Part shown: in pieces, positions 577 to 58,800 of the stretch
How the letters are laid out: the number at the start of each line of letters is the position of its first letter
Position numbering within the stretch: position 1 is the stretch's first letter
NCBI GenBank assembly: GCA_021292105.1
Contig: CM037871.1
Location: forward strand, 52,931,261-52,995,260
Direction: 5' to 3'
From: Anadara kagoshimensis
Lineage: Eukaryota > Mollusca > Bivalvia > Arcoida > Arcidae
DNA length: 64,000 nucleotides
Made by a program: the position numbers and the translations under genes
Notes under the pieces: model-generated
Told to the model about the DNA's origin: nothing
The model's database searches: none
Seen by the model: only the letters and a program-made list of their open reading frames with translations

Positions 577-2835
577 ATTTTGTTTATCAGTTTATAAGAA
601 AAAACATCAAAGTAATTTTGAAACACATTTAGGCAGGTCAGGGTGTGATATATATATATATATCTATGTGCTTTAAATAATAGTTCTTATATATTATTGT
701 CTGTAACACAAACGTCTCCAATTTGTGAATCATATAACCATCGGGGGTACAAAGTATACATCAAGATTTTTATATTTTTTCTGCTTTTTGAGGAAAACTC
801 AGAAACTTTTAAACTTTTTAAAGGGAGATTATTTTGATTAACAATATTATTTATATGTTTAACAGATTCACTGGAACGTTTAAAGTGTTTGGATGACAGA
901 AGCCAAGACAAAGACGACCAGGTTGAAGTTTTATCTGTAACCATAGAAACGTTATCTCAAACTGTTGATAAACTTTGTAATAATCTAATAGAAAGACAGA
1001 ATGTTGAGCAAGATTCAACGGTACAGGATATTTCTGAAGACAGCGAGGACATGGTTAATACTGATTCCGAAAAAACAGATATAACCGAAGACATAGACGT
1101 GTATGAAATGGATATTGTTCCAGAAGAGGAGATTGTAACCCGTGAGGAAATAGACAACATTGAAACGACTAAAGCAACTAGACAGGAACAAATTGTACCG
1201 AATGTGACCAGTTCTTCAGAAAACACTGACATCCAAAGACAGACGAGAGTGGAGGGAAACTATAGAGATAATGACGGGCCAAGAAACAGAGACAAATATT
1301 CAACGGCGGCACGCCATTCAACTAACATTGAAAATATCCCAAGAATTAAGGTTACACGGAATGACTTAGGATTCAAGCGAAAGTTAACAGAACAAGTAGA
1401 TGACAACAGAGTTTACTGTCTTGAAAACAGAATAGAAGAAACAAGAAGTACGCCGTTACAAATGTCTAATATACCGGTATCACAAGATATAACAACAGAC
1501 CAAACAGAAAGACAAACAGAAACAACAGAAGACGATCTATTTAGAGGGTTAGGTTTAGACCTGGATGGAACCGATCGGCAGACAAGCGAACTGTTGGAAA
1601 GATTTGCCACAATGAGGTTACGGTTTGCTTTTTGTGTACATAATGTATTTATAAAAACATCAGTCTAAAGGTTTCAAGTTCAAAATCGAATATGCATCAT
1701 ATCTTTAAATTTGTGCTATAGCAAAAATACATTTATGTTTCCCGAATCCAGTCAAGCATTTGCAAGAAACGCAATTTACTCATAATATATAATAATAATA
1801 ATTTGATATAATTTACAAAAATTTAATTTTAAAACAAAACATTAAGTTAGTTGATTACAAGTTACTTAAATAAACTAGAATTGACTTTGAGCTGAGTGTG
1901 TGATAAACAATTTTATACTTTTCGGGTCAATCGGCAATGAAAGCACCAGACCTAAGAAAAGTTAAAACTCCCTGGGCACGATAATCCCATTTATAACATT
2001 AATAAATAACATAGTGTAACAATTTTGTTTCAGTTTGAATATTTTTATATGTTCATCGTACTTCATTGTTTTTAGTTTTAAACTGAAACTAACAAAATTT
2101 GAATTCTCATTGTTTGTGTTTCACAATTTAAATGTTGTGTAAATATAAATTTCTTGTATTTCTAGAACAAAGAATGGAAATGAGTACAGAAATTTAGTTG
2201 CCAACCCATCAGGTACATTAAAACCGGACTAGAAACGTGCACTTTGCCAATGCAAACAAACCTAGATACAATAACGGATGTGGTGGTGAAAATACTATCG
2301 TATTTTTTTCCGTCATTGTTTATGACTATTTTCATTATTTACACCTTTTAAAAGATTGTGATTTGTGATTAGATTTCTTTTCATTTCACACTTGGTGGGT
2401 GTAGCTAGCTAAACAGGAGATAGTTACCCTTCTATCGCGCCTCCCTCGTTAAAGTTCATGTTTAAATTCATTTGCCATTTTCAAAGTTTTTACTTTGGGT
2501 TTGGACTGTGATGTTTGTTTTTGATCATTGGACAAATCAAGGGTAAGAATATGCTAATCGTACAACATCTGGTGATGGATGTGATTCACATTATGTCATT
2601 GATATAGTATTGGATCCTTGCTTTATAGTATTTTTGTATTTAATTGTCAACATCACGGGTGGAATGCTGATGCCAGTTGGTTTTTTGTGAAATGTGAGAT
2701 AAAGGCGTGAACATCAAACATTCAAATTGAATTTTAAAGTCAATAATGACAATATTTCAATCATTTTAGGCCTTAGTCGAGAAGTTATAGACGAAAGTCT
2801 GTGGGCAGAATGGGCACAAGAAGAAGTTGAAAGAG
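457..2835 (+). CDS. copy A acidic linker exons
   Basis: Exons 457-503, 866-1616, 2166-2212 and 2770-2835. The 751-nt exon encodes an acidic, Thr/Glu/Asp-rich, probably disordered segment, beginning with a short amphipathic helix-like run and ending in a conserved block (DDLFRGLGLDLDGTD). The last exon gives a helix rich in E, W and A (LWAEWAQEEVE). Exon lengths are identical to 41663-44302. The TTG at 889 is internal, not a start: the reading frame enters from the previous exon at 866. Confidence 0.8.
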
Positions 2836-5800
2836 GTAAAATATATGGTTCGGCGTATTAAACTTGGTAATACTTGCAATAACCACTTATAGATAAAAAG
2901 CCTCGGAATATCCAGAATATCTATATTGTTCAATGGATTTGGTGTGGACCACTTCCCTGGGAAAAGTTCGTGTGTTGAATCTAACTTGTCAGTTTCAAAG
3001 TTTGCTTCTGGATTGTGATCGGACATAGATTATGTTTGTTTTTTTTATTAATACAGCATTAGACGGATTTCTATAAGAAGCATTTGGATATAACAATGAT
3101 TCCTGTGATTTGTTTCTAAATGCCATTAAAATCATTGTAGTAAAACAAAGTAGTACTTGTTGATAAATAAGGAAAGACAAACATTTAACTATAGTTGAAA
3201 AATTAGCACTTCTCTAAAAATTAATGATTTTATTTGATTTTAGACGTAATGCTTAAAATCTAAAACTATTATGAACACATGACTTTATACACATTGAAAT
3301 TCCTCAAAGCACTTGTTAGACATGAAACCTGATATGTTAGACCTGTAACAAAATTCATATGAATTGTAACTTGGCACATTGCGGAAGTGTAGGTTTATAT
3401 ATATATATATATATATATTATTGAGTATGCTTCATGTCCGGTAATAGTTATAAGGGATTTGCTATACATGTATAATGGGCCAAAGTATTTAATGCTTTGA
3501 ACAAATCATCAAATATCTACTATAAAAAAGTTATAACAAATATCTTAAAATGCTCAATTTTAATTAATATTATTTTTAAGCTAAAGCTTCACCGATACCA
3601 CCGACGGACGGCCCTAAAACAGTACTGTGCCTAGATATTTCAGCAAGCATGAAAGGAGCGCCGTTCAAGCAAATGAAAGCACTAGCCATAAAGTTTGTAA
3701 ATGGTAAATATTCTATTATCATAAGAGACTTATAAATGCACAGAGCAGTTATAGGCGGACATGGCCGAGTGGCACTGTCACTGAGTTGTGGGTGCGATCT
3801 TAATTCGGGACTTTGAAATTTTATGAAATGAATTTAGTTCCTATCCATACTAGAGCTGTAAAAAGCTGAATAAGGTATAGTCATTCGGATACGAATAAAA
3901 ACCGAGTTCTTTGTCTCATACACGCTAAAGAAACTTATGTAGAGTTCGATAAAGAGCAGGCCCCTGTACTGTGGCCGCTAAGAGGTACTTACAACTGAAA
4001 CCGACCGAGCGAAGTAAGAAAGTTATGTACCTGTTTAATTTAGATTGTTTAGTATTGTTTTTTATTCGCTAGTTAATAAAACATACCTTTCTTATAATAT
4101 TGAACATTAAAGGAAGCAAACTTCAGTTCAAGATTCTATATTGTGTTGGCTTCTCATATACTCTGTAATAAATAATTTTGAAGCACTCTTGTTGTTTTGT
4201 AAAGGCAACTGTTACTGAATGAAAATACTGCGTCTGAACAATTTTTTCTAATATTATGCTTTTAAAAATAATTTTAATAATTTTACATTAGATACTCATC
4301 ACACTAAATTGTCAGTAAAATATGGTTAAAGTATAAACAGAAATATTTTACACTCAGTTATTTGTCTATAAAAATTATTACTGAAAATATTTTAATTTTT
4401 TTTGATAAAATGTATTCATAACCAATCGGCCTAATGCGCACTTTAGGTTTCCATGATGTATATTTTGCAATAATCCAGCTTTAATGAGAAAAATATGACA
4501 ATTTCTGCAATGATGGAAAATTAACAAAGTCCATTTACTCCACCCTTTTTACCATGAAAGGCACAATTATATGCCATGAGCTTTTTTATTCATATAATCT
4601 AATCTGCTTATTATGCAAGAAAGGCTAATCAACTATGTGCTGTGTCCTGTGTAAAGTCAAAACAAAATAATGTTTTGTTTAATGTTCTTCTACCACAATC
4701 CTTCTGAAGGTATTTGTGATAGAATTCAGATTGACTCACATGGGTGGGTGGCTTTAAGTATGTATCTGGATTTTACATTTTCATTAATTTTCAGAAATAT
4801 GTACATACATGTATTCTCAAACCTAACATTGGTACTACTCGTAGCTTAATTGAGCGATGAATTAACAAATGTCAGTGATACGCCTGTGTTCTTAAATTAA
4901 CTATGCAAACATTTAAACAAAATAAACATGTATAAATTGTATTCACTTCAAATGCAAGTAATTTTGCAATTTAGTTGATAGGTGTTGGATCATTTAAGGT
5001 CTCTATAACCTTATAATTATTAAGATAACCAAATTTCTATTTCTCATCTGTAACTGGTTTTTGAGACAAATCCATAAAACTGAGTGTTATCCATTTCTGA
5101 TTATACTTTAGTTTTCCTTTTGCAATGGATAAAAAGAATGAATTGGATACTTCGCACCAGTCTGCAAAATATCCGATTCTTGTATATTTCAATAACAAAG
5201 AAATAAAATACTGTAATATTGTGTTTTACAGTCTCATGTATTCACATACAAAACAACCATTTATATTGTATTATATGTTACGATTTTAGAGATGGAAAAT
5301 ATTACGAAAATGGGAGTTTCTGAAAACATTGCACTTGTTACGGTTGGTCATGAAACCCGTGTTGTAAAGCATATGTGTATGGATTATAAAGCTATTATAT
5401 CATGTATAGGTATGTGTATTGTTAATGATATTCATAGGTATGAATTAAGGAAACACCAATTAAAAGGAATGATTAATAGCTGATTATGTGATTTACATCA
5501 CAAATTACCTTGCCATATTATAATGACAAAAGAAAATGGTATTGGACACCTGTAAACCTTAAGCCTGTAATGGGGTGTGCAATACCACTTTCTTTTATCA
5601 TTACAGTTTGGTCTAATAATTTGGGATGTAACTGCTAATAACAACTCCTTTTATAGAATAAAAAGGTGGGGTTGTTGGGTATGAATTTTATTTAGTCTGA
5701 AGTGAAATTGAAAATTTTACGCAGTGCGCAAACTTTTTGAAATAAGATTTTGAGCAGAGGCAGGTATTGCACATTTGTCACTTCCTAATAAATTTAAAGT

Positions 5801-9300: not shown

Positions 9301-12300
9301 TGATGCTGTGAAATATTGTCCCTCGTTGAGTCAAAATTTGCACTCGATAGCTCGTGCATATGTCGAATCAACGCGGGACAATATTTCACAACATCAGTTT
9401 AATAACCCTATAGTATTACAAATAGTATACATTGAACGGCATATTTGTCTTTTATTTCAGGCAAACATAAAAATAATAACATCTGAAAGTGGCGGTCGAA
9501 TAGTTCCTCCAGAAAAACTGAATTATCTTATTCGAATGCACATGAATTTTGTAAGTATTGTTTTAGCTTTCAATTTGACACTTAAGTGAGTTCACAAAAA
9601 TTTTAAATATAACATTCTCTCAAAATATTAAACTACATTTAAGCTGGTGCTTAACAGTGTTTGGTCTGGTAAAAAATAAAGCTTTCAGTTCACCTGAATC
9701 TTGTGTAAACTGCACTACTAAACTACTGTCCCAAATCAGATGATATTTAGCAGTGCTGATGTGAGGGTCTTAAAAATTTGCACAAATGAAGGGGTTATGC
9801 CCCCTTGGCGCCCCATAAAAGGGAAAATTGTGAAAGGCGACTTCCGGTTGGGTGGAACATCATGTAGGTCGTGTTTCAGAACAGCTCCAAAATATTTTTC
9901 AGAAAGTTGTTTAAAAGCCTTAACATACCAACTTAAGCTTGAAAAAGTAAAACTAGTAAGTTTATAGATGCGGTCTTGCATTAATAATTAACTGTACATA
10001 ATCAGCATTTTGATATAAAACGAAGATATATACCCCGGGTGATTGACATTGATTGACATTCATATACAGCTCACGTTTTTCCCCGTGCATTCATTCACGC
10101 CTGGCTTATATAGATTGAATAATGGCTAGTAATTCTGACAACATATCTAATACGAAGGGAGATATTTCCGAAGATATAAAGTCTTTATACAAAGATAGAG
10201 ATATGGTAGAGTGTTTTGCGATGTTGCAAGCAAAATTAGAATCAAAGCTAGAGTCAAGTATAGAAAATGTCAAGGGAGAGGTGAAAGAATTAAGTAAGAG
10301 GGTGGACAACCTAGAAAACTACAGGGACTTCATAGAGGATTCAATAAAGGAGATAAACGAGAGAGCAATACCGAAGGTTGAAGAAAAACTTGAAGGTGAG
10401 CAGAAAGAGAGGATAAAACTCGAAATGTGGGGGAGAAAATGGAACCTTATTATTAGAGGGGTGTCGGGGGAATTGAAAGAAAATCCTCGTACAACTGATG
10501 GGAAAATTAGAGAATTTTTTAAAGCTGTGTTGGGTGTCCCAAGTCATCAAGCTGATAATATACTTTTCCAAGCCATACACAGGCTACCAAATGGCATAGA
10601 GTCAAAAAGAAACATCATTGTAAGATTCAACAATCTGATAGATAGGGATGAAATTTTGGAATTAGCCAAAAAATTGAAAGCCGGCTCTGGTTATGGGATT
10701 AGCCCCGATCTGCCCCTGAAATCAACAAAGTGCGAATTAATCTATTACGTGAACGAAATGCCCTACCTGAAACCATGAAGAAAAAAACCAAACTAGTATA
10801 CATTAGGGAGTACCCGTTTGTACGATTATGGACCAAGGCTTAATCATAACAATAATCACGATAGACTAACTAAACATTAACCGAAAAAAATCAAATGAAT
10901 AAGTTGAAATAAAAGTTTGTAACAAAACTATAAATCTATTGAAAAGTGATAGAAAAATTACAACATTTGATATATTCTTTTGTCAGTTTTTTTCCTCTCT
11001 CGGTGGTTTCTTATTAGAAACAAGTTGTACATGTTTGAGTTATGCAAATTAGCCACGTGTAAACATGGGTTTTTTTGTCCTTCTCTTTTATCTTCCCGCA
11101 ATGGGTGAATTCTCATAAAAGTTTAAACCGATCCTGAAAATGTGTCAACATTTAAGTCTATATTTAAACTTTAGTTTAAAAATGTTGACGGGTTATATTT
11201 TGGTGACCTGCATATGTAAATAAGGGAAGGTCAAACTAATAGTCGGATCGATAATTCGCTACATGTGATAAGCTTTTTAGAGTGGCTGTTTAGTTTGTGA
11301 ACTGCGTTATGCAAATAAGGGAAGGTCACACTAATAGTCGGTCGATAATGCACTGCAAGCGATAAGCTATATAGAGCTTCGGTCACCTGGTCATGCGATT
11401 CTGACGGCCGGTTCGATATGCAAATTAAGGTCATGTTTCGGTGGGTAGTTTTGCATAGCGCAACACATTTGTCTCGACGATAGAAGATACAATTTTATTG
11501 TTTTTATTATTTTTCTCCCTACTTGTTTTCTTTAAGGTTTTGTACTTCTGTAGTTTTTTTTCATTCCTATTACAGGTTTCGTGTATGTCCGTGGTGAGAA
11601 GTGCATACTATCCAATTTTTACCCGTGTGATATCACTGACGAAAACAAGGCTGTGTTCAGAAGTGCTGAGCATCTTTATCAGTTTCAAAAAGCATCTTTT
11701 TTCAACAGAGAGGAATTGGCATTAGATATTAAAAACGCCGTAGACGCACATGAGGCAAAGCGTTTGTCCAAATCTATTGGCAGATCGCATCTTTCAAATT
11801 TATGGTACCAAATGAAACTTGGCATCATGAAAAAAATTCTCTTGTTGAAATTTAACCAAGTCGTCGATTTTAGGCATGCACTTCATGAAAGTCTCGGACA
11901 AATCATAGTTCACAATGTGTCCCATACATTTTGGGGAAAGCGGAAGAATGGTCAAGGAAAAAATCACTTCGGACATTTACTTATGAACATTCGCGATGAA
12001 AAATTGCAAAAACTATGAAGTTGTATCTCAAATCGTCTTTTTTATGTCTATTTTTGTTTTCTTTTTTGAAATCTGATCTATTTATTTATTTATTATTATT
12101 ATTTTTTTTTTTTTTAATCAACAAAGGCAATTGATAAGTATGCTGGAGCTGTAATCTGGTTTTTCCTACATTAATATATATAATAGGTATACTTATACTT
12201 GTTTCCGGAAGTATACCTGAGTTTTTGGGCGGGATTGTTTATGGGGACTATACAAAAGAAAAACCTTCCATACATATACATGTTTATGAAATGTTGCTCA

Positions 12301-15300
12301 TTTAATTTTCCACACTTTTATATTTTTACAAAGAATATTTTCATGTTATGCATTATCAATAATTTCTTATTATGGGTTCTGAGATAAAATTTGGAAGTCT
12401 GAATTGCAGGGGACTTTTTTCCGATAATTTAAAAAGAAGGGATATATTTAATAGATGTAGAAAAAACTACATATTTCCTTTTTAATAGATACGCATAGTA
12501 CAAAAGAGGTCGAAAGTTTCTGGAGAGCAGAATGGGGTTATGAAGCAAAATTTTGCTCTTATGCCAGTAACAGTCGTGGTGTTGCGATATTATTTAAAAA
12601 TTCGTTTCAGTGCGAGATTTTAAATGAAATAAAAGACCCGATGGGAAATTTTTTAATACTAGAAATTAAAACACAGAATAAAAGAATAACAATTGCTGCA
12701 GTTTATGGACCAAACACTGACCAGCCAAATTTTTTTCAGAACCTCAAAAATAATATTAATATTTTCGAAAATTCTTCTATTATAATAGGTGGGGACTTTA
12801 ATGTTCCACTTGATTATGAACTCGACACAAAGAATTATGTTCATAAAAATAACCCTAAATCACATGAAAAATACTTGAAATTATTGCTGAACTAGACTTA
12901 AAAGATATATGGAGAGATTCGAACCCAGATTTTTTTAAATACACATGGCGGGGACCAAGAGAAAAAAATCAAAAATTCAGTAGGATAGATTATTTTTTAG
13001 TATCTTCAGATTTACAACCCTTTATTTATGATTCTGACATTGATATATGTTATAGATCAGATCACTCCCCAGTAAGGATAAGTTTTAAATTTTTAGAACA
13101 TGAAAAAGGAAGGGGCACTTGGAAGTTTAACAACGGTCTTCTTTATGACAAAACTTACATTGACTTGGCTAAAGAATGTATACGTAATACTATAGATCAA
13201 TATGCGACTGATGAATCCGGTGAAAATTTTTCAATAAATGACCAACTTCTATGGGAAACAATAAAATTAATGTTAAGGGGTAAAACAATCTCCTATAGTT
13301 CTCACAAAAAGAAACGTTCTATGGAAAAAGAAAAACAATTGGAAAATAAATTAAAACAATATTATGAAAATGAAATTGACGCTTCGGCTACTGATATTGA
13401 AAAAGTCCAAGATGATCTTAAAGAGCTTCGAGATGAAAGAATTAGGGGTTTAGTTCTGAGAGCAAAAGCAAGATGGTTGGTTGAGGGGGATAAAAGTAGC
13501 AAATTTTTTTGTAATTTAGAGAAAAGAAATTTTACAGAAAAAATCATGTCAAAACTAATCATAGAGGACAATATAGAAATAACTGATCAACAGAAAATAA
13601 TGGCATCTCAAAAATCGTTTTACCAATCCCTGTATTCCTCACGTAATTTACAAACTCTTGACAAAGAAGACTTATTTTTCAATAGTGATAATCCCTTTAT
13701 TAATAAACTCAGTGACGTTGACTCAGAATCTTTAGAAGGAAAAATAACTGAATCTGAATGTTCATGTGCATTAAATAATATGAAAAACGGTAAATCACCA
13801 GGTCTCGACGGTTTTACAATAGAGTTTTATAAATTTTTTTGGAAAGACATTAAGGATTTTGTTGTTAAATCAATTAATTATGGGTATAAAAATGGATCTT
13901 TTTCGGTGTCACAACGACAAGGTGTTATCACGTGCATACCAAAAGAGGGTAAATCAAAATTTTATTTGAAAAACTGGAGACCAATATCTTTATTGAACGT
14001 AGATTACAAAATTGCTTCCGCGGCTATTGCTGAACGAATTAAACAAAAACTAAATATTATTATCAGTGAAACACAGACTGGCTTTTTAAAGGTAAGGTAT
14101 ATTGGGGAATCAACAAGACTTATTTTAGATATCATAGATAGAACAGAGGCTGGAAAAATACCAGGAGTTCTTTTACTGTTGGATTTTGAAAAGGCATTTG
14201 ACTCAATAGAATGGTCATTTATTGAAAAATCTCTAAGGTTTTTTGGCTTTGGTGAGTCCATAATTAAATGGTTTAACACCTTTTATTCTGGAATCACAAG
14301 TTGTATTCAATATAATGGACATTGTTCCGACTTTTTTCCAATAGAACGAGGGGTTCGACAAGGGGATCCTTTATCTCCTTACCTCTTTATTATTGCTGCT
14401 GAATTACTCAGTGCCGCAATTAAGCAAGACCCAAATATTAATGGTATCTCAATTAATGACTCGGAATATTTAATATCGCAATATGCCGACGACACCTGCC
14501 TCCTGCTTAACCCAGACGAAACTTCATTAAACTCTACTATTAAATTACTAGACCACTTTGCAGACTGTTCTGGCTTAAGAGCAAATTTTGATAAAACGGA
14601 GGCAATATGGATTGGTGTAAGGAGGGGTTGTGGTGAAGAATTGGAAACAGTAAAACCATTAAGATGGAATCACGAAGGAGTATTTAAACTATTAGGTATA
14701 AAATTTAACTTGAACAAAACCCCTATTTACATTGATAACTATATTGAAAAATTAACTTGTTTCAAAAAATTACTTTTATCTTGGTCGTATCGAAATTTAA
14801 CAACGATTGGTAAAACTACAGTTATTAAGTCACTTGCCCTTCCAATACTTATCCAAGTACTAACAGCTCTTCCGGATCCTCCACCTAGTATAACGAATGA
14901 GATTCAAAAAACTATTTTTAACTTTATATGGAATGGAAACACAGATAAAGTCAAAAGAAACATCATGTATTGTGATCAAGCTGATGGAGGACTACGTGTC
15001 CCCCATATCGAATCTTTTTATAGATCTCTGAAAATGACGTGGATTAAAAAACTTATAGATCCTTTCAATAAGTCACCATGGAAATTATTATTATCAGATA
15101 TAACTGAACAATTCGGAGGTTATGAAATACTCTTCTTAGATGAATCCGGTATAAAAAGTTTCTCTAATAAGCTCCCCGCGTTTTGGATGGATGTTCTCGA
15201 AAACTGGGCTAGACTTCAAACCAATGCCACCACAACCCCTGCAGATATTCTGTCGCAACCTCTTTGGTACAACCAATTTATCACAATTGATAATAAAATG

Positions 15301-18300
15301 ATCTTTAATAAAGAGATGTTACACAAGGGCATATTTTTTATCAATGATATTGTAAATGTGCAAGGAGAGATTTTGAACTGCAAGGAATGCATGGATATTT
15401 ATCAAGTTCGTCTAAAAGACTTTGATTATATACGTTTAGTCCACGCTATACCAAAAGAATGGAAGCAAAAAATAAGAGGCGTTAAAAAGATAACAGAAAT
15501 AAAAAATGATTATATACAAATTCTTAAAAAATATGAAAAAGTTACCAAACCCTTTTACAATATGTATCTAAAGAAAGTAATAGAATATCCTACTCGTGTA
15601 AAAGAATCATATCACAATAAACTAAATTGCTATTTTGAAGTTAATATTTGGAAAGAAATATATAGATCGCCTTTTAGGATAACTGACGATTCTAAATTGC
15701 AATCCTTGCAGTTCAAAATTAACCATAACATTATATTTACCAATGCCAGGCTTTACAAATGTAAATTAATTGACACAGAGTTATGTACATTCTGTTTTGA
15801 GACTAAGGAAACAATTATACATATGTTTTGTGAGTGTATACATACTAAATCTATCTGGTATCGCCTTCTGCAGGATCTCAGAGATAAATGCAACATTGAA
15901 ATCAAGAAGAAAACCGAAAATTTCTTATTTGGTATTTATGATGATCCTCGACACTATAGCATTAATTTATGTTTTCTGATTATAAAATCTTACATCTATC
16001 TCTGTAGAGCCAGAAAGACGATACCAAACTACCTAGGTGCTTTACTTTATTTAAAAAATCATATGACAATAGAAATATTCTCCTCTTTTATGTATCCCTC
16101 TAAAAAGGCAAATTTAATTAGATCAAAATGGAAAGTAATTGAAAAACTCTTTGTGGAAATGTAATAATGATGTAATATTTTGTATCTGTATGTTATATGT
16201 TTTTTTTTGTTAATAGTATGGAAGGACAATAAAAATATTATTTCCAAAAAAATTGTGAAAATCTTTAGATAACATCTTCTCTGAAGTGATAATGTTTCTT
16301 GTAAAACATACTTAATGCACCTAGTTTCAGATTTGCACAAATCGTCTCTGTACTGGTCAAAATGATGACATGGCAAAGAACTAAAGGGGGGAATTGTTAG
16401 TATTTTAGGAAACTATAAATTTTTGTATAAGCATGTATATTACAATATTGTAGGTAATGGCATAAAGATCATTTTGATATGAAGGTCATGGGTTCAAAGG
16501 TTAAGGTCACAGATACAACCGGATACTGAAATGATTATTTATCTCGAAAGTTATACGCGTTTTCCATACGCATGTATATTAGAATATTGTAGGATTGTAA
16601 TCGATGTTGAAATATTGCAGGCCCTCGCAATGCAGATGAAAATGCAGATAAAAGACACAACGATTGACGAAGCGACAATGAAAATCGCTGTAAGAACAGC
16701 TTTTTCAAGTTTACCCGAGGATGATATAGTAAGTGCTTTTGAATGATAAAACTTTGTCATGCTGAGTGTCCATCGATGTTTGACATGGTACATAGGGTCG
16801 TGTCACCTGCTTTAACCTGTATGACGTTTTTATGACACTTAAACTCTGCATCAGTACTTGATTGATATTTTAAAATTCGACTTAAGACACTCCATTGAAG
16901 GGTGGAATATATATACAATTAGTTATTTTGTAGCTATATGATTTTAAAACTGAAGGTATACAGATTTACAGGAAAAACATAGCTTTTTTTACCATAGACT
17001 GTGCTTTCGAATATAATATTCAGTCAATCTTTAACTATATTTTTTCAGGATTTTGTTTTCAAACTGGAAAAATCATGGCTGTAATTTTCCTATGTAAATT
17101 AAAACAAAGTATTAATAGTATGCGCAATATATATATTTTACATACGTAGTATATTATGTTATATGCCTGACATTAGTAATTGGGGTTTTCTTTAGGAGGC
17201 GATATTAGAGTTTGTGAAAAAACCAGAAATACTTGCATTTAATGTTGCCGACATTTTGAAAGAAAAAATACATAAAGAAATACGTGGATCTAACTTGCCA
17301 AACATAGGTACACGAGTGAAACGTGGACCCGATTGGAGCTGGCAAGACCAAGACTCTGGTGGGCCTGGGACGGTTATTGGACACCAACAAGAAGGTATAC
17401 AGTCCACATCAGTTTATTATTGTCAAATTTTTAAAACAACTATCATAGAACATCCTACAGTACATCAACTATCTAATGAACTTAAATTGTATTGAAATTT
17501 TAAGAACAAAAAACCATCCAAAAAAACCAAAAACATGTCAATATGTGTCAAAACCAAAATCCTAAAGTAAAGTAAAAACTTTGAAGCTGGCAATTAAGGT
17601 TATACATGTGAACTTTCTACAGGGAAATGAGGCTATGTCGTACGGAAGGGTAAGCACATTCTGTCACGTGTAATTAAAATTAGGAAACCAAGGAACACGG
17701 AACCATGCAATACTTTGTATCTACATACAAAAAAATTAAATATGCAACACTTTGCTAAAAGTTGCATGTTAACGTTTTCATCCATACTGTCGATATTTAA
17801 TATACCTATATATCTGTATTTGTTTCGTTGAATTTCTCTCTACTTGTATTATAAGGTGTGGTGTTCGTTGAATGGGATGGAAATGGCAGACACAATACAT
17901 ATAAATATGGTCACAACAATAAATATGATTTAACGGTTATTGATAAACCAAGGTCATTGGGACCAGACGAATTAATAGCAACCGGATGTGCTGTCAGACG
18001 TGGTAAGTATATTATGTAACATATAAAACACAAACATACCAAATCCTTGTCCAAATTACATCCGATCCCAAAGCAAAGTAAACTGACAAACTAAAGTAAA
18101 CATGTGAGCTGCCATCAGAAAAGTGAGGTTGGCTACTCCGGAAGGGTAAGCTCTTCCTGTTAAGATAGCTACACACGAAATAAATGTAATATATTGTGCA
18201 TATCATTTTCGTTTACGGATGGGTATAAACGTTGTACCTCAAATATATAGAGAATCGTGTAATTTTGAATTTTTTGAAGAAGGTGAATAAATCTCATAAT

Positions 18301-52800: not shown

Positions 52801-55800
52801 TAACATTCAACGAAGTAATAGGGCGCTAATTTTTTAAATAATATTCTCTTGGTTGATCCGCTTTTAGAATTAAAGTAATTAATCACTGCCTTTGTGTTTG
52901 TCATAGAAAACCTTGTTCAAAACCATAATTTAATGAACGCAGTAAAAGATCACATAAATCTATCCAAACTTTTTTTTTATAGAATTCAGCAGTAAAGTCA
53001 TCTAAACAGCAGTTTTAGTGTTTTTTAATAATTGTAATACATTGATCAATTCTGGTTTTCTTATTTTTCCTTCCAATTGCTCACTTTCTGTGTTAGATAA
53101 TTTGGGAACATTCTCATCCATAAACAATGCATTTAAATCTATTTCAGTTAGTTCATTATCTCTACTAGTAAATAAAGTTTTATGAAAGTTTGTAGTTTTT
53201 CTTAAATTAAATCTTGATCTGTAATAACATTACCATGACTGTTGATTACTTTGCTTATTGTTTTGTTTATAAAGTTTCTTTTTTCCAAGCTAAGAAAATA
53301 GTTTGAATTCTACTACCCAGAATTTACCTGAGCATAAGATGTTGCAGAGAACAGACCCATAAACACTGGCTAACTCGCCTTTTATTTCTTTCCCTGTTTT
53401 ACCTTTTAAATAGAAGTACCGAATTACAGCATAACACAACTTTGTATGAAGAAATGCCGCCTTTGCACCACAAGCCATGTTTGACGTTCAATATCTTATT
53501 GAAAAAATGACTCGATACATGTGGAATTGTGTACTAAGGTATAAAAGTTGTATTAAAACAAAACAAGGAAATCATAACCATGTTGGACAATCGGAAATAA
53601 ATACGGCTGGTCACTAATTTTCTCGCCCTTGTATTCCGTTGATATAAATCAATCTAGCTCTGACAGTCATATTCTGTCATAAATCTTATAATTTTTTATT
53701 TACATAAAACTATTAAACAATTTTGAACTAAGTAACATGAATTACATGTTTTAAATATACGAATCATTTCTATTTAGAAACAATGCAGTGTCAGGTTTAA
53801 CATCTTTATATTTCGTTTAATAGCGTGTATTCGATAAATTTTGGCAGAACCACTGTTGTAGCTCAGTGGTAAAATGTCGCTAAGTATTTGTTTGGTCATG
53901 AGTTCGAACCCCGGCCAGGTATGACCCAAGACCTGAAAGTGGGTAGTGACTGTAAGTTAGCCAAGCATTCGGCATTACGAAATGAAAGTCACGGTTCTTT
54001 TGGATGGGAACTTAAAATAAACTAGGTCCCGTGTCACGGTAGGTTGGGCATTCTAAAGAACCCTGTTGTATAATGCCATTAGCGCATTGCAATATTTCTG
54101 CAACTTCGCCGATAGAGGGGGACGTCTCGATATAAGGGCATTATTCTTGACTGGGACGTCAAACACTCAATTCACTTTTGAGACTTTCCTGAAATTGATA
54201 ATTTGATTTCCTTCAGTATTGGTTTTGTTATTTTATTATATCTTAATTGATCACATCAGCAAATTTAGAAAAGTCACGTATATTGTAGTAAAAAAATCTT
54301 GTTTTACGCCATTTTCATTTATATTAATATAAAATTATCAGTATTTTAGAAGTGTGGTCAGTCTCATGTAGCAATATATGCTTCACATAAACATTAAACG
54401 ATACGTCCTGAGGTTTAGCGTGCAATATGTTTCTATGTTAGCACGTAAAGATTCCAGTCAAAGGTTTCCCAAACATTTTTTATACTGCAAGCTTTTTCAC
54501 GTGACACATCGATTATGATGTCAAAAGATTGTTAACTGCATAGCTGTGTTGTTTATGGGACAAAATGGTATTTTTAGATGGACTACTAGTGGGAATTAAA
54601 AAAATGTATTTTTCTATATATTAAAAAGGTTATTGAACTGATATTATATAAATAGTGCTCTCGGTTAAGGCAAATATGTAGGAATTTCTCCCCGAGAGAA
54701 CATTATCGACTTTCGGCTCGGGAGATAATTGAATTGAATAGTGAAATTTTAGAATATTGACTGCGAATATTTTGTGTTTACGTTTCCCTAACAGAAATGA
54801 GGGATATACGGACAAAAGAAGAATTACTCAGTAGATTTCGTGATAAAAAGCCCTAAGTTTTCGTGTCTAGCGATGAATATTGCAATATCCCATGGTAATG
54901 TTGACCGCTGCTTGAAACATTGTGAATTGTCTCATACCACGTGATTAGAAATTGACCAATAATATTTTAAGTATTTTCCGTGATGTACGAGTATAATAAT
55001 GTGGAATATTGTTCCTCGTTGAGTCGGAATTTGATTGAAAGCTCGTGAAAATGTCGAGTCAACTCGGGACAATATTTTATAATATCTGGTAAATATCCCT
55101 ACAGTATACATTGACATTGACATGTTTGTTTTTTATTTTAGGCAAACATAGAAATAATAACATCTAAAAGTGGCGGTCGAATAGTTCCTCCACAAAAATT
55201 GTCCTATCTTATTCGAATGCACACGAATTTTGTAAGTATTTTTTTAAGGTTTCATTTTTGAAACTCAAGTGAGTTCACAAAAATTTAAACATAACATATT
55301 CTCTCAAATCACACATTGTACCAGTCTTAATTTTCCAGCAAAAGAGCGCCATTTCGGAATACAATTCCTCATCAGTAGTGCTTGGATCAAAACTATGAAA
55401 CAAAAACTTAAATATTAAAATACATTTAAGCTGGTTCTTAACAATGTTTAGTCTGATAAAAACAAAAGCATTTTAGTTAACCTGAAAAAAGGTTCTTATG
55501 ACCTATTGTTATCTATCTTGTTTACACTTTTCACTACTAAGCAGTGATGATATGAGGGTCTTTCAAATTTGAAAAAATGAAGGAGTTCTATCCCCTTGGC
55601 TAGAAAAAGGGAAAATTGTGAAAATCTTTAGACATCATCTCCTCTGAAGAGATAATATTTCATGTGAATCATACCTAGTGCACCTAGTTTCAGATTTGCA
55701 TAAATCACCTCTGTACTGGTCAAAAAGATGACAGGCAAAGTACAAAAGGGGCAGAGCCTCGTTTCAGATGAAAATATCTGACCACTCGACTGGAATTTCC

Positions 55801-58800
55801 TTATCTCGGTCTGGAACTCGTTATAGATTCTCTTTGTATTGGCATGTCTATTAGAATATTGTAGTTAATGACATAAATATCATTTTGATATGAATGTCAT
55901 GGGTTCAAAGGTTAAGGTCACAGATGCAAACAAATACTGAATGATTATTTATATCGAAAATTGTACACTTTTTATTGGCATTTATATACGAATATTGTAG
56001 ATAATGATATAAAGATAATTTTGATATATAAACGAAGCCCATGGGTTTAAAGGTTAAGGTCACAGATACTAACGAATACTGTAATCATTATTTATCTCGA
56101 AAATTATACGCACGTTGAATGTTAGAATATAATAGGATTACAATCGATGTTGAAATATTGTAGCTATTCGCAATGCAGATAAAAATGGAGATGAAAGACA
56201 CAACGATTGATAAAGCAACAATTAAAATTGCTGTAAAAAAAACAGTTTTATCAAGTTTACCCGAGGATGATATAGTAAGTGTTTTTAAATTATAAAACCT
56301 TGTCATGCTTAGGGTACATCGATGATTGACATAATACATAGAAACTTGTCACCTGCTTTAACCTGTATAACGTTTTTGTACTAGATTGATCGTTTGAAAT
56401 TCGACTTGAGGCACTCCATTGAAGGTTGGCATATATATATTATATATATATATATATACAATTTGTTATATTGTAGCTACATTGTATATGCTTTTCAAGA
56501 TATAAACCGGAAAATTTACCTATTTACAGGAAAAAACATAGTTTTTACCATAGACTGTGCTTTCTAACTAACATACAATAAATATTTAGTGCACTAAATA
56601 TAGCTATAATTGTTTAAGGGTTTTGTTTTCAAATTTGGAACATCATGATTATAATGTGATTTCCCCATGTAAATTAAAACAAAGTATAAATGGTATGCAC
56701 AATATATATATTTCACATACGTAGTATATTATTTTATATGCCTGACATTAGTAATTGGATTTTCCTTAGGAGGCGATATCGGAGTTTGTGAAAGAACCAG
56801 AAATACTTGCATTTAATGTTGCCGACATGTATGAAGAAAACAAATATAAAGAAATCCGTGGGTCTAAAATGCCAAAAATAGGTACACGAGTGAAACGTGG
56901 ACCCGATTGGAGCTGGCAGGACTCAGACTCTGGTGGACCTGGGACGGTTATTGGACACCAACAGGAAGGTATACAGTCCATTTCAGTTTATTATTGCCAA
57001 ATTATTAACAGAGCTATCATAGAACAGCCTACCGTATATCAGATATCTAGCGAACTTTAATTGTATTAACATTTTAAGAACAAAGAATATTAAAAAATAT
57101 ATGTCAAGATCAAAATCCTAAAGTAAGGTAGAAGTTTTGAAGGTGGCAAATTAGGTTATACATGTGAACTTTCTTCAAGGATATGAGGCTATGTCGTACG
57201 GAAGGGTAAGCACCTTCTATCACGTGTAATTAAAATTGGAAAAGCAGGGAACACGAAACCATGCAATACTTTGTATCTACATACACGAAAATTAAATATG
57301 CAACACTTTGCTTAGAGTTGCATGTAAACTTTTTCATTCATACTGGCGATATTTAATGTACCTATATATTTATATTTGTTTCGTTGAATTTCTCTATACT
57401 TGTATTATAAGGTTGGGTATATGTTGAATGGGATGGAAATGACAGACACAATGCATATAAATATGGTCACAACGATGAATATGATTTAACGGTTATTGAT
57501 AAACCAAGATCACTTGAACCAGACGAATTAATAGCAACCGGATGTGCTGTCAGACGCGGTAAGTATATTATGTAACAAATAAAACACAAACATACCATCC
57601 AATCTAAAAGAAAAGTAAAAACTTTGAAACTGACAAATTAAAGTAAACATGTGACCTGCCACCAAAAAAGAAAAGTTGGCTATTCCGGAAGGGTAAGCTC
57701 TTCCTGTTAAGATAGCTACTCCCGAAATAAATATAATAAATTATGAATATAGTGTTTGTTTGCGGATGGGTGTACCTCAAATATATAGAGAATCGTGTAA
57801 TTTTGATTTTTTTAAGAAAGTGAATAAATCTCATAATGCAACGAAGCTTGTCTGTAATCTAGTACTACACTTATTTAATAAAACCAAAGGTGTTAACGCT
57901 AAGGGAGATTAGGTTAAACTATATGTAGGGAAACTTACTCTTGATTTCTCTTATCATTATAAACATATTACCACTATTATTACTTTTAATTATCCTATTC
58001 ACCTGACAAAGTTCGACCCAATCACTTATATATCTGCTCATTATCATTTAATGAAGTAGATATCGAAAAATATTGTTATCATAACTATTGTTATTATTAT
58101 TTAAATATTTTTTTCAATTAATTGTTTGCATTTATATATCTATTGATAATCTGTTGTTTTTATATAATAAAAGACTGATATTATTCTAGGTCCTGACTGG
58201 AGGTGGAATGATCAGGATGGTGGTGATGGGACCATTGGTTATGTCTTTAGGGTTGAAGCGAACGGATTGATTTCGGTAAAAAAAATTAACATTTTCTTAA
58301 TTTTATTAGTTCTATTTGTTTAAAATAATTAATTTTAGGACGTCATTGAAATCGTTGTTTATCATTTAACAATTCAAAAGAAATATACCAATGTGATTTG
58401 TCCAAAACGCAATCCAAAAGCAAAGCAAAAACTGGCACATAAACGTCCTCCAGTGTATGCAAACCAAAATTGGTCATTTTAGTAGTCAAATCGATTTCTG
58501 TCGTTTTATCTTTAATATAAACCTTTATTCTTTCTAAAATTTTCATTTATTCCTATTAATTTTATTTTACGTTCTCATTTTTAACAAGGGATGTATTCCA
58601 ATATTTGTTTATTGTTGATTTTAAAGGAAACAAAATTTTATTAACTTAAAATGCAAAACAAACGTACCAATTTATGTCAAAACGCAATCCCAAAGTAAAT
58701 TGAAAACTGTTGACAAGCAAGCAAATTAAGTCAAATATAATATAATGATCTTCTCTTTCATGAAATCTCTATAATATCTTTATTCTAAAGGTTCGGTGGC

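Follow-up and report, generated by a model that had tools for sequence, protein, structure and literature searches.

The 64,000-nucleotide stretch of Anadara kagoshimensis DNA analysed here (the window) carries a LINE in which a NADAR domain, a kind known to strip ADP-ribose from DNA, is encoded between ORF1 and ORF2. LINEs are usually regarded as intronless, with one or two ORFs. From sequence comparison, we consider the element to represent, with a probability of roughly 0.7, an L1-superfamily lineage in which a NADAR exon has long been held and would be spliced onto the coiled coil of ORF1; the ADP-ribose step is the weaker part of this explanation.

The preliminary description of this DNA had reported a 6.4-kb insertion bounded by a target-site duplication (TSD) and missing from a second, paralogous copy (copy B). 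Both statements held. The 12-bp repeat is exact at the two ends (Table 1), and the absence from copy B stands because the flanks, joined without the element, align to the paralogous stretch at 73% over 606 columns, with the junction spanned. The placement of NADAR was also borne out, with ORF1 on one side and the reverse transcriptase (RT) ORF on the other. The copy in the window is damaged, as its ORF1 encodes 218 aa compared with 240 aa in four other copies (L033-L036), and its ORF2 is in pieces.

Table 1. Features of the element and its surroundings, in window positions.
Feature	Position	Strand	Basis or remark
Target-site duplication, 5' copy AAAATTGTGAAA	9824..9835	.	exact 12-bp repeat
LINE insertion (L1 superfamily, family A)	9836..16248	+	blastn to other copies, boundaries, TSD
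ORF1, predicted coiled coil then L1-type RRM/CTD	10122..10778	+	218 aa here
Proposed shared first exon, coiled-coil half of ORF1	10122..10395	+	91 codons + 1 base
Proposed 5' splice site GTGAG, in codons GGT GAG	10396..10400	+	top-scoring ORF1 donor
Proposed alternative intron, 1180 nt, RRM/CTD half of ORF1 inside	10396..11575	+	each of the three frames has stops
Proposed 3' splice site, pyrimidine tract ending TTACAG	11554..11575	+	one phase in 11/11 lineages
NADAR open frame	11554..12018	+	
NADAR exon	11576..12018	+	146 aa plus stop
NADAR domain	11578..12015	+	
ORF2 (EN, RT, zf-RVT)	12372..16164	+	broken here; 1264 aa in L031 and L035
RT ORF of the window copy	13165..16164		
Target-site duplication, 3' copy AAAATTGTGAAA	16249..16260	.	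exact 12-bp repeat
Paralogous empty site (copy B)	55410..56000	+	joined flanks align over junction

The L1-superfamily traits of TSDs, 5' truncation and an A-rich 3' end are present, and the L1 superfamily is the element class used here, Tx1 being the label of the preliminary description. The ORF2 protein of copy L035 matches human L1 ORF2p (8uw3) over residues 8-1190 (E 5.4e-95), and the Pfam domains of ORF2 are an AP-like endonuclease, RT and zf-RVT, the last at 26.0 bits, just below its cut-off of 27.5. ORF1 had no match in the Pfam search; its top PDB profile match was LINE-1 ORF1p (2ldy), a weak one (E 0.098) that starts at position 100. In the predicted model of ORF1 (pLDDT 74), two helices (28-82 and 86-105) precede RRM-like strands that begin at position 108.

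The identity of the NADAR ORF was confirmed by the profile search that had been named beforehand, in which the domain matched PF08719 (E 4.2e-23; 82.8 bits, with a curated cut-off of 35.1) and, in the PDB, YbiA (2b3w, E 8e-11). The proposed comparison of the predicted structure with YbiA agreed, giving a YbiA-like fold at a pLDDT of 94.2.

Besides the copy in the window, family A has four full-length copies (L033-L036), 99.3-99.5% identical to it over 6.4 kb by blastn, and all five differ in their TSDs. Copies L031, L032, L037 and L039 are truncated at the 5' end, L037 having an internal deletion as well. In a genome-wide NADAR search the best 150 of 546 candidate places were scored. The NADARs were sorted into eleven lineages: A (window), B (L042), C (L045, L075), D (L019, L046, L049), E (L017, L024), F (L048, L053, L071, L073), G (L050), H (L054, L067), I (L047), J (L052, L072) and K (L055). 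NADAR is flanked by ORF1 upstream and the endonuclease downstream in eight diverged families (A-G and J); one flank was seen in H (ORF1) and I (endonuclease), and neither in K. NADAR thus occupies the same place in independent insertions, in five full-length copies with their own TSDs as well as in the diverged families.

Among the matches listed were two clusters of NADAR matches, all on the + strand, with 19 matches at G000:C18:45.02-46.10 Mb and 6 at G000:C12:19.45-19.60 Mb. Both are mostly partial or contain stops, being local arrays of decayed family A relatives. Separately, L043 (G000:C11:8400500-8407000, ORF 719-5512) has a 1598-aa frame in which NADAR is joined by an SGNH/GDSL hydrolase and, under the Pfam cut-off, by a weak DUF6589-like end; frames of 1592 and 560 aa lie on C5 and C15, and L043 may represent a further NADAR-bearing mobile element outside the LINEs. 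A 335-aa frame at L044 (G000:C9:65590800-65597500, ORF 1484-2488) also combines NADAR and SGNH/GDSL, and may belong to a repeat family too, because frames of equal length recur at several places.

The dN/dS check that had been named beforehand gave values of 0.23-0.53 for NADAR in interfamily pairs with pS under 0.70, which are rough because dS is near saturation, and 0.47-0.60 in two within-family pairs with few changes. Distances of ORF1 and NADAR correlate (r 0.36, 712/20,000; without family C, r 0.58, 106/20,000), and in 61% of bootstrap trees the LINE NADARs group together. In family C (L045, L075), ORF1 is sister to that of family A (98/96) and NADAR stands apart, with Asp kept at the D130 place (reference numbering, below). 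On these trees, the oddity of family C may reflect an exchanged NADAR exon or a fast branch.

For the residues of the domain, residue 1 was set at window position 11578 and the NADAR of P. nicotianae was used as the reference. The equivalents of E43, K50, W89 and W133 are kept in the window NADAR as E31, K38, W76 and W119; E31 and K38 were matched to E43 and K50 by spacing and motif and are at least 90% conserved in alignment A2. In the P. nicotianae protein, E43 and E125 are reported to hold the distal ribose, and K50, W133 and, via water, D130 the pyrophosphate; in the E. coli C7 NADAR, efficient activity is reported to be lost when the E125 equivalent is changed (PMC11543638). The equivalent of the catalytic E125 is Val in the window, aligned directly to the Glu of YbiA, and Val or Ile in other LINE lineages (Leu in L043). 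Neither the last-strand Glu of the YbiA subfamily nor the Asp that the BC4488 subfamily has at this place was found in the window NADAR in these alignments. The D130 place holds His in 9 of the 11 lineages, the window included, and Asp in C and K. It is therefore quite possible, if not the reading we favour, that the LINE NADAR binds ADP-ribose/NAD or RNA as a reader or packaging factor and is not a hydrolase, which would be compatible with splicing. Besides the replacement of the E125 and D130 equivalents by Val and His, this would agree with SNA-3, a nematode NADAR protein described as needed for trans-splicing, which places NADARs in RNA contexts (PMC9303266). However, the four other residues are kept, the aligned LINE lineages share an invariant His (H112) next to the E125 place, one residue away, and activity is reported for phage NADARs, in which His is described as replacing E125 (PMC11125620). 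De-ADP-ribosylation by the LINE NADAR is therefore possible, as judged from its residues.

How the domain could be translated is suggested by two sites in the element. The first is a donor in ORF1, G|GTGAG, which would cut one base into a codon and is the highest-scoring donor within ORF1 in families A, B, C, D and E; in F, G, H and J its position in the protein is the same. The codons GGT GAG are found in the same phase in all nine families whose ORF1 covers the site, and this phase fits the NADAR acceptor. Across the nine aligned ORF1s, 36 columns carry the same degenerate amino acid in eight or more families, and the only two of them that use a single codon are the donor codons (2 of 20 columns in a seven-family version). 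In the predicted ORF1 model, the donor (codon 91/92) would fall after the helix at 28-82, within the helix at 86-105 and before the RRM-like strands.

The second site is the acceptor. When YAGs were ranked by pyrimidine count, the top one left 2 nt of a codon in 11/11 NADAR lineages. A strict rule, which called for a YAG, 10 or more pyrimidines among 15, a fixed distance range and that phase, was passed by 10 of the 11 lineages, C being the exception, compared with 2.9% of 10,530 control anchors from the same elements; the odds cannot be multiplied as independent because the families share ancestry. Six further loci agree (L071, L072, L073, L075, L076 and L077), and in L074 the NADAR start was not located by motif. 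At the NADAR loci where no LINE ORF1 or endonuclease was seen in the sequence examined (L043, L044, L078 and L079) the acceptor was not found.

The proposed intron is 993-1234 nt long over the families and, in the nine introns counted, has many stops in every frame. Of 28 family pairs compared by blastn (E 1e-5), 13 matched in the NADAR part, with short NADAR pieces for C and J (140 and 81 bases), 10 in the ORF1 part of the intron and one (A-D, about 42 bp twice) in the intron outside ORF1. Donor, acceptor and phase have therefore persisted while most of the sequence between them was lost. Within the proposed intron of the window lies a 34-bp direct repeat (94%; 11213-11246 and 11308-11341), and the A-D match may be this same element. 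In the predicted spliced product, a NADAR exon of 137-153 residues comes after the coiled coil, which takes up 72-91 codons in families A, B, C, D and G. The spliced junction was not found for families A and B in a genome-wide word search run without a positive control, nor at the examined loci of families A, B, D and E. As the copies keep the intron, unspliced RNA must be the template. A conserved alternative intron that would swap the RNA-binding half of ORF1 for NADAR is, on this comparative evidence, the best reading.

Another first exon, either from the 5' UTR of the element or from the host upstream (exon trapping), could be spliced to NADAR instead, since family B has three strong 5' UTR donors (scores 7.3-7.4). 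We regard this as unlikely, because no donor that strong was seen upstream of ORF1 in the 5' stretches scanned for A, C, D and E, which in some cases covered part of the 5' UTR, and because the codon-frozen ORF1 donor in nine families and its phase match to the acceptor would be needless for a non-coding exon. In L042 (family B), positions 60-250 contain a 5' repeat of about 84 bp, with three units bearing the strong donor-like ACAG|GTAAG.

The preliminary description had presented NADAR as a free-standing third ORF between ORF1 and ORF2. Such an ORF would have to be translated from full-length RNA by a non-AUG start, an IRES or reinitiation, and the frame is indeed open for 154-190 codons in the seven family A copies with the whole exon. 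An ATG is present in frame three codons after the acceptor in K and inside the domain in D, G and I (further upstream as well in I and one D copy). However, no in-frame ATG precedes the SNF motif of the domain in 7 of the 11 lineages, the family of the window included, the listed ORF start at 11581 is a GTG of the bacterial table, and what is translated in the upstream part of this frame is pyrimidine tract. A free-standing ORF also explains neither the frozen donor codons nor the phase lock. We therefore consider it highly unlikely, and the splice marks suggest an alternative second exon.

A host NADAR gene inserted once into the window copy, as a nested passenger with no role, is ruled out by the same placement in the five full-length copies and in the diverged families. 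Family copies lacking the ORF, which would have favoured such an insertion, were looked for with the endonuclease region of family B (best 150 of 1548 places scored). Among the places of at least 50% identity, at least 57 of 102 had a same-strand NADAR within 5 kb upstream, and below 50% identity 0 of 48 were paired with NADAR among the matches listed. None of the 6 copies inspected among the 45 unpaired places was demonstrated to be full-length and to lack NADAR. L060, L062 and L065 start downstream of the point at which NADAR lies in their family, and L061 and L064 do contain NADAR, broken across frames. L063 has no NADAR and almost no match to its reference, as would fit, though not demonstrate, a truncation further down.

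With alternative splicing of NADAR onto ORF1 as the preferred reading, the element would make two RNAs. The full-length RNA would give ORF1p (coiled coil-RRM-CTD) and ORF2p and serve as the template for retrotransposition, while the spliced RNA would give a second protein with the same coiled coil and NADAR replacing the RNA-binding half. Less securely, because the presumed trimerising coiled coil is shared, this protein could join ORF1p trimers and bring NADAR to the particle of the element's RNA or cDNA, where it might remove or bind ADP-ribose on guanine. That mixed trimers of such a two-form ORF1 carry an ADP-ribose eraser onto their own RNA or nascent cDNA, maybe to counter a defence by putative CARP-1-like guanine ADP-ribosyltransferases of the host, is a tentative and rather unlikely extension. 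Guanine-N2 ADP-ribosylation of DNA, a CARP-1-kind activity, has been reported in six edible clams (PMC11209040), and a substrate for the LINE NADAR is plausible. If true, a splice switch that selection has kept in diverged LINE families would give this class a new layout of gene expression, and nucleic-acid ADP-ribosylation would be tied to the conflict between transposon and host.

The preliminary description knew of no described case of NADAR in a LINE. However, NADAR in Tx1 LINE ORF1 proteins of Crassostrea gigas is given in one sentence of a paper (PMC12477816). These elements resemble ours in having NADAR on an animal L1-superfamily LINE; there it is called ORF1, and an intron, a second ORF1 form and splice sites are unmentioned in the accessible part of that source. 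No paper on LINEs with two forms of ORF1, or with an alternative intron that is conserved, was found among the matches listed, in a search mostly outside the coverage of subscription journals. NADAR in LINEs is thus already described, and the predicted splice layout, NADAR onto the front half of ORF1, is the part for which that search gave no description in LINEs.

A Gypsy lineage of Ectocarpus is alike in that NADAR was captured by a retroelement and conserved, but it is an LTR element, and its NADAR forms the N-terminal part of Pol (PMC12477816). The TRAS LINEs of Lepidoptera also carry a captured accessory domain, which is a helicase and lies inside ORF2 (PMC5563155). The NADAR antitoxins of DarT1 and the P. 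nicotianae NADAR (8bau) share the fold and the E43, K50, W89 and W133 equivalents with the LINE NADAR, whereas the latter has the E125 and D130 equivalents replaced (PMC11543638). In human L1, splice sites likewise join the 5' UTR or the ORF1 region, but this splicing, known from SpIREs, is described as a dead end that yields non-functional ORF1p variants and inhibits retrotransposition (PMC5860796). The sites described here, in contrast, are conserved across families and would add an in-frame domain.
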